A stretch of DNA of 41,357 bases, from positions 1 to 41,357 of the forward strand of contig JAFRFV010000198.1 in NCBI GenBank assembly GCA_017434185.1, read 5' to 3'. Under the pieces are notes generated by a model. It saw nothing but the letters and a program-made list of their open reading frames with translations, was not told the origin of the DNA and searched no databases. This document shows, in pieces, positions 40,462-41,350 of this stretch. The position numbers and the translations under genes were made by a program. Numbering within the stretch: the first letter of the stretch is position 1; every line of letters begins with the position of its first letter. The stretch is from Coriobacteriales bacterium. GTDB taxonomy: Bacteria > Actinomycetota > Coriobacteriia > Coriobacteriales > RUG844.

Positions 40462-40947
40462 TCAGCTTTTATGCGTGCCCATTCGCATCAATTGTTCACC
40501 ATCTATGCGGTACACGTGCCAGTCCATCATGGGACGTGCGCCCAAGGACAGGTAGAAGTCGATGCTGGGCTGGTTCCAGTCGAGGCATGCCCACTCGAGG
40601 CGACCGCAACCACGCTCCACGGCGATCTGCGCAAGACGTGTGAGGAGCGCTTTGCCGTGTCCGCGACCGCGATGCCCGGGATCGACGAAGAGGTCCTCCA
40701 GGTAGATGCCCGCCTTACCCAGGAAGGTCGAATAGTTGTGGAAGAAGAGGGCGAAGCCAACGGGTTGGCCGTCCTCCAGCGCGAACAACACCTCTGCGTG
40801 GCCTTGGTCGAAGATGCTCTCCTGGAGCCCCTCGGCCGTGGCGACGACCTGGTCCTCCATGCGCTCGTAGATCGCCAAGCGTGTGATGAAGTCCAGGATG
40901 ATGTCGCACTCTTCACGCGTCGCGAATCGCACGTCGTTGCCGCTCAT
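40462..40947 (-). CDS. GNAT-family acetyltransferase
   Basis: A protein of 161 residues similar to diamine/spermidine N-acetyltransferase-type GNATs. The order is RFATREECDIILDFITRLA, an ALEDGQPVGFALFFHNYSTF strand pair, YLEDLFVDPGHRGRGHGKAL (acetyl-CoA loop RGRGHG) and WNQPSIDFYLSLGA. The ATG at 40947 begins MSGNDVRFA with GAGG upstream; a longer reading to 41022 has no ribosome site. The acceptor is a small amine by analogy only. Confidence 0.88.
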   Translation of the reverse strand: MSGNDVRFATREECDIILDFITRLAIYERMEDQVVATAEGLQESIFDQGHAEVLFALEDGQPVGFALFFHNYSTFLGKAGIYLEDLFVDPGHRGRGHGKALLTRLAQIAVERGCGRLEWACLDWNQPSIDFYLSLGARPMMDWHVYRIDGEQLMRMGTHKS

Positions 40948-41097
40948 GTCGCCTCGTTTCCTTCGATCGCTGCTGTCATGCTGCGAATCATAGCAGACCA
41001 GCGCAAGCGCAGCAGCTTCCACGCCGCCGCAAAGAGGGACGGCTCTGGTTTGCGCAATCGGGGACAGTCCTTGGGAGGGCGCTGACGATAGTTGGCG

Positions 41098-41211
41098 TCG
41101 ATTCTTGGCGCCTCTAGCGCCGTGTGGTCGATTATTTACTCATTGGGTAAATCGTGTAGCCTTTTGAGCGTCGCTACCGCCGACACGCCAAGAATATGCG
41201 CCAAGAATCGA
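41098..41211. repeat. 114-bp unit with 14-bp perfect terminal inverted repeats
   Basis: TCGATTCTTGGCGC at the left and GCGCCAAGAATCGA at the right match perfectly. TTGGCG also occurs 13 bases outside the left copy, and CGCCAA occurs 13 bases inside the right copy, so the motif is present four times in pairs. An inner pair (ATTTAC with GTAAAT) flanks seven bases. No target-site duplication is evident. Confidence 0.75.
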
Positions 41212-41224
41212 AAGTGGGGCTCGC

Positions 41225-41264
41225 GAGTCTGTCGAGCGAGTCTGCGGGTCGACAGACTCGCGGG
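41225..41264. repeat. 40-bp palindromic repeat, copy 1
   Basis: It matches copy 2 at 38 of 40 positions. Within it CGAGTCTGTCGA (from 41224) and TCGACAGACTCG form perfect 12-bp arms around 13 bases, which themselves contain another GCGAGTCTG. Confidence 0.85.
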
Positions 41265-41310
41265 GCGATTTCGAGCCCGCTGAACTCGAGATATCGCGAG
41301 TCTGACGATT

Positions 41311-41350
41311 GAGTCTGTCGAGCGAGTCTGCGTATCGACAGACTCGCGGG
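41311..41350. repeat. 40-bp palindromic repeat, copy 2
   Basis: It differs from copy 1 only at the two central bases (TA for GG). GAGTCTG also occurs alone at about 41298. The array may continue past the window edge. Confidence 0.85.

Follow-up and report, generated by a model that had tools for sequence, protein, structure and literature searches.

A 125-bp inverted-repeat element, which we call module A, occurs at six places on five contigs of a single genome and is probably a non-autonomous, dispersed intergenic element of the MITE or REPIN kind, mobilised in trans. One copy lies near the right end of the window, by which we mean the whole stretch of 41,357 bp that was analysed. The window is contig C199 of an assembly of 268 contigs and 1.99 Mb, with 93.44% completeness and 3.65% contamination. 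The reading as a mobile element is supported by the six dispersed places, the fixed length of 125 bp, and module edges that fall at the inverted ends. We infer from these features the movement itself, the trans-acting enzyme, and the use of the 13-bp units at the ends as binding sites.

Anatomy and copies of module A

Each end of module A spans 26 bp and is composed of two units at a spacing of 13 bp, the typical unit being GAT[TC/AG]TTGGYG. The first base of the inner units often differs from this form, and in one inner unit (copy C26) the variable pair reads AA. The parts of the copy in the window and its neighbours are as follows:

40462..40947, − strand: GNAT acetyltransferase gene, the nearest gene to module A (139 bp away, with the start codon picked by eye)
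41024..41083, + strand: module R, a degenerate GGGACGGTTCT direct pair
41086..41210, + strand: module A, the whole inverted-repeat element (125 bp)
41087..41097, + strand: left outer unit GATAGTTGGCG, AG type
41100..41110, + strand: left inner unit GATTCTTGGCG, TC type
41112..41184, + strand: 73-bp core, variable apart from a TTTAC...GGTAAAT segment
41134..41152, + strand: small inverted repeat ATTTAC/GTAAAT in the core
41186..41196, − strand: right inner unit TATTCTTGGCG
41199..41209, − strand: right outer unit GATTCTTGGCG
41222..41262, + strand: module B hairpin 1, GCGAGTCTGTCGA-type 13-bp units and an inverted copy
41295..41348, + strand: module B hairpin 2, three direct units spaced by 13 bp and one inverted copy (the contig ends at 41357)

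In all six aligned copies, the core keeps TACT and GGTAAA unchanged. In the symmetric register, the arms at 41086-41110 and 41186-41210 are 25 nt long and 80% complementary. Over the 26-bp ends, the matches in register number 20/26 in C199, 21/26 in C216, 20/26 in C26, 19/26 in C251b, and 25/26 in C251a, which is the best copy for end pairing.

The sequence-only reading had described a 114-bp element with 14-bp inverted ends. These ends do exist: 41098-41111 and 41198-41211 are complementary at 14 of 14 positions and lie 86 nt apart. The mirrored TTGGCG pairs that it reported, two per side at 13-bp spacing, are present as well (41092 and 41105 on the + strand, and within 41186-41204 on the − strand). 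Its borders did not survive, since the repeating unit is the 125 bp of 41086-41210 and the 14-bp arms are shifted by one unit from the true register. Pairing of the second left unit with the first right unit was ruled out by the register across copies. The left inner and right outer units are identical (11/11) in C199 alone, and the other complete copies match at 7, 7, 8, and 10 of 11 positions; it is because of this identity in C199 that arms of 14 bp and a length of 114 bp had been read.

The claim that such arms are too long to be chance was borne out by simulation. We generated 200 first-order Markov sequences of the length of the window and counted perfect 14-bp inverted pairs with a spacer of up to 150 nt. 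The simulated sequences held 0.05 such pairs on average, and only 9 of the 200 had any, while the window has three. Two of these three belong to module B, which adjoins module A, and none is left once the last 400 bases are removed.

Searches of the genome by blastn and by pattern found five complete copies and one partial copy:

C199: 41086-41210
C216: 2118-2242
C26: 4834-4958
C251a: C251:129-253, − strand
C251b: C251:8488-8612
C47: 8688-8786, cut by the contig end

Single-copy status, which the sequence-only reading had listed among the findings that would speak against it, is therefore contradicted as far as copy number goes. The length is exactly 125 bp in every one of the five complete copies, even in the diverged C251b, where the MAFFT alignment shows the core shifted by an insertion and a deletion of 10 bases each. 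A covariance model built from the six copies, and thus certain to recover them, revealed no seventh place in this genome; several places scored on both strands, as expected of an inverted repeat. The exact unit pattern GATWSTTGGYG has 22 matches in the genome, 12 of them inside copies of module A. The ten others have no paired arm in the approximately 300 bp inspected around each; one of them (C118) abuts module B and another (C251:7365) shares its contig with copies of module A.

All six copies are apparently intergenic, with genes judged by eye from lists of open reading frames (ORFs). Mechanical calls of at least 60 amino acids do cross several copies (among them 41092-41283 in the window, 2168-2629 in C216, and 3770-5002 in C26), and these were judged by eye to be spurious. 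The same lists, as we read them, place the element upstream of a gene at three loci (C199, C47, C251b) and downstream of one at the other three (C216, C26, C251a). The right edge of module A in the window is 147 bp from the contig end. Of nine repeat-module loci, seven are no more than 250 bp from a contig end, as against 6.7% expected, with the cut-off picked after the loci had been seen and the distances entered by hand. This excess fits repeats that break assemblies, and the number of copies is thus probably an undercount.

Mosaic arrangement with other repeat modules

Module A commonly stands in a row with other repeats. To its left, module R is found in C199, C216, C26, and C47, and unrelated DNA in C251a and C251b. 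To its right, module B, made of 13-bp units of the GAGTCTG type, is found in C199, C216, C26 (where the copy is cut inside module B), and C251a; the right side is unrelated DNA in C251b and is unseen in C47. C251b therefore represents module A alone, with neither B nor R. A further module, C, with GATTCTGCGG units, continues after B in C216 and C251a. The modules also occur in other combinations: contig C118 has an R-like stretch followed by B and no A, and contig C8 has R followed by C. The number of 13-bp units differs between loci in both B and C.

The four copies linked to module B differ in conservation along their length. The right arm has the highest mean pairwise identity (1.00), followed by the first B hairpin (0.94), the left arm (0.81), and the core (0.79). 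Among the three R-linked copies, the 26 bases to the left of module A have identities of 0.85–0.88, and these fall to 0.12–0.23 in comparisons with C251a, which has no R. This drop in identity places an edge at the end of module A. All four carry module B and agree fully in the right arm; a spread of the whole composite, or gene conversion, may therefore account for them in place of movement of module A by itself.

Two further observations concern these loci. After the repeats, C216 (L046) and C118 (L050) continue with a stretch that is near-identical by eye (GCGCTGTGCTGAGCCGGATAGCC...) and carries the same 29-nt inverted repeat, which suggests duplicated neighbourhoods. Pairs of GGGACGGTTCT also occur in this genome at C8:5693-5735 and C47:8638-8673.

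Proposed mobilisation and alternative explanations

In the mechanism that we propose, the paired 13-bp units at both ends would serve as recognition sites. A recombinase or transposase encoded elsewhere in the cell would bind these units, and would move or copy the 125-bp element into intergenic DNA. Insertion often beside other repeats of the genome (R, B, and C) would build the mosaics described above. A scan of the flanks at 81 offsets for a target-site duplication turned up an exact repeat of 4 bp at most, in one of the five complete copies, and none in the other four. A flanking repeat of at least 4 bp was reached at 150 of 500 random places. A target-site duplication could have decayed. 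No longer or autonomous element with module A ends was recognised around the 22 exact unit matches, in an assembly that tends to break at repeats.

A single Y1_Tnp gene was found in this genome at E ≤ 1e-5. It encodes 249 amino acids (G000:C49), and we provisionally label it RAYT-like. The gene is enclosed by its own 44-bp inverted repeats, which are 98% complementary and 993 bp apart (L106:1594-2674). As these flanks are unlike module A, the Y1 transposase was rejected as its mobiliser. Among the nine stretches compared, the flanks had no match at E ≤ 0.01 outside their own contig, and no relation to modules A, B, or C was seen. A partnership of this transposase with module R is possible, given a weak likeness by eye between GGGACAGGTCTT and GGGACGGTTCTT. 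Y1_Tnp genes are present in 239 of 395 genomes of the order, and the presence of one here therefore tells little by itself.

Of the three readings offered from the sequence alone, the miniature mobile element is now the best supported, a two-sided protein-binding site is compatible with the data, and a structured RNA has been weakened. Protein binding may in fact be how the ends of a mobile module A are recognised. As an explanation in its own right, it would make module A a binding site for a host regulator or a chromosome-organising protein, with the 13-bp site pairs joined by looping across the 73-bp core; we regard this as unlikely. The unit sequence is kept and its TC or AG type varies approximately independently of pairing, as if units were read singly; four copies agree fully in the right arm, against a core of 79% identity; and the length is fixed, all of which a host-protein site would explain. 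However, a spacing of 13 bp is not a whole helical turn of DNA (approximately 10.5 bp), the copies lie on both sides of genes, and module A was not found in the two family mates searched (85% and 80% complete).

It is more doubtful still that module A acts as a structured RNA or a transcript-end element, forming a stem-loop in 3′ or 5′ untranslated regions. The single strand folds stably (z = −4.16, with none of 200 shuffles as stable, under DNA parameters), but any inverted repeat must fold in this way. Two-sided changes were seen in 6 of 39 predicted pairs (by our reading, C251b contributes four of these, and C47 and C26 one each); nevertheless, the consensus fold has an unfavourable covariation term (+4.34). 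Among the 20 units, 14 are of TC type, 5 of AG type, and 1 of AA type, so that agreement across the stem is expected by chance in about 5.5 of ten in-register pairs; six agree. Together, chance-level type pairing and the unfavourable covariation term favour the view that each unit is read as DNA sequence, with the proviso that the copies are related and few. Moreover, there is no Rfam match at module A, the only matches in the window above the gathering score being four tRNAs elsewhere; there is no terminator-like site; and the copies lie on both sides of genes.

Least probable of all is a passive by-product, in which duplicated intergenic blocks were homogenised by recombination and 13-bp units multiplied by replication slippage with no enzyme involved: the right arm and first B hairpin do exceed the left arm and core in identity, as under local conversion, and unit numbers do vary in B and C, but C251b has module A without B or R and retains exactly 125 bp despite its divergence, and the outer flanks differ between copies.

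Distribution and relation to known repeat families

To the extent of the searches made, module A is seen in one genome, which to judge by gene content may belong to the Coriobacteriia. Among 395 genomes of the order, a strict two-arm pattern matched just one, that studied here; as it recovers three of the six known places (missing C26, C251b, and C47), its absence elsewhere is not exhaustive. The same applies to the covariance model, which was run with strict filters and scored at most ten candidates per genome: it matched 2 of 297 genomes, namely this one and, weakly (E = 0.0057), G162, whose sequence reads as coding by eye and was rejected as a copy. A DNA search within the family detected module A in this genome and in neither of the two family mates. 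The module B pattern matched 2 of 395 genomes of the order, this one and G380, where the 29-bp match was likewise rejected as coding by eye. In contrast to module A, GGGACGGTTCT direct pairs (module R) occur in 20 of the 395 genomes (L088-L097 among the loci), with as many as 26 matches in a single genome (G389) and with spacers that differ from genome to genome. These pairs make up a widespread repeat family of their own.

An origin from a phage, plasmid, or virus was rejected: module A had no blastn match among phage and plasmid records, the strict pattern had none in viral contigs, and neither the module B pattern (0) nor the CTTGGCG pair pattern (0) matched. A half-arm pattern had one match, which reads as coding by eye. 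In the genome contig collection (genome_contigs), the strict pattern had one match only, in an Acidobacteriia metagenome-assembled genome (L045). There, at L045:3446-3586, arms of 46 nt that are 87% complementary carry tandem CTTGGCG/CTTTGCG units. The likeness to module A consists of the strict-pattern match and tandem units of a similar kind; the L045 repeat differs in having an extra unit, another core, and another arm length, and it is present at one locus in 8 kb. No plasmid relatives of it were found. In two contigs of the genome studied, 20 kb of each was searched de novo, roughly and with a prefilter, for further inverted arms of 26 bp; this gave one and zero matches, and the single match reads as coding by eye. 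A literature search on the motif letters gave no title about a bacterial repeat among the matches listed.

We compared module A with the bacterial MITEs (Correia/NEMIS, RUP, ERIC) listed in PMC2229807. As a short element with terminal inverted repeats, module A resembles these, sharing a size of approximately 100–200 bp, multiple copies, and intergenic positions. It differs from the families as tabulated in that no target-site duplication was found, the ends have no TA, no parent insertion sequence was recognised, and each end is formed of two 13-bp-spaced units. REPINs and BIMEs with RAYT transposases, as portrayed in PMC3116915 and PMC2817692, have in common with it hairpin-capable inverted pairs and mosaic clusters with other palindromes. 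The genome has its one RAYT-like Y1_Tnp gene, but the module A repeats do not flank it and few copies were found. A GTAG-type tag is not a consistent feature, since only three cores (C199, C26, and C251a) contain GTAG and those of C216, C251b, and C47 do not (by eye, on one strand). The Caulobacter CIR elements, as described in PMC2229807, are similar in being approximately 110 bp long, intergenic, and furnished with GANTC sites. They are described there as conserved across alphaproteobacteria and as being without a terminal inverted repeat, in which module A differs, as does its diverged copy C251b in having no GANTC. As far as the literature searches reach, module A represents a new family of an ordinary kind of short bacterial repeat, well bounded and seen in one genome.

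GANTC occurs in the units of B and C and in the outer TC-type units of A, with two sites in each of four complete copies of A and none in C251b. Its density is 31.6–59.3 per kb in the measured B and C stretches, 14.0–15.5 per kb in the four B-linked copies of A, and 0 in C251b; since the units are repeats, these densities represent few independent events. Over positions 1-41000 of the window, GANTC is depleted, at 2.17 per kb (89 sites versus 128.3 expected, SD 9.9, under a second-order Markov model).

Separately, the 9-mer GATAAGCGC, often extended to GGATAAGCGC, occurs eight times in the window (at 1272, 9595, 13235, 14585, 25261, 31589, 32404, and 35964) versus 0.28 expected in shuffles. 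It is the commonest 9-mer in four other contigs of this genome (74.9 kb), with 20 occurrences versus 0 for a reversed control. A sample of approximately 216 kb, drawn from 12 other genomes of the order, held three copies in all. The 9-mer resembles a signal for DNA uptake or one of the Chi type. In C216 and C8 the row of modules stops next to GATAAGCGC, and in C118 it stops next to the shorter GATAAGC. As a speculative and rather improbable extension, A, B, and C might be sister families of an undescribed type, built of tandem and inverted 13-bp units with a shared GA[T/G]TCT, GANTC-containing core, and dispersed by one non-RAYT-like enzyme system, partly beside the genome-wide GGATAAGCGC signal.

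The module repeats fit with the breaking of the assembly at this locus, and the family will hold little surprise for specialists in bacterial repeats. It does combine an unusual end design, of two 13-bp units per end and a fixed length of 125 bp, with a clear mosaic context. Such families help to ask which enzyme moves short palindromic repeats where the genome's own Y1 transposase is no obvious partner.
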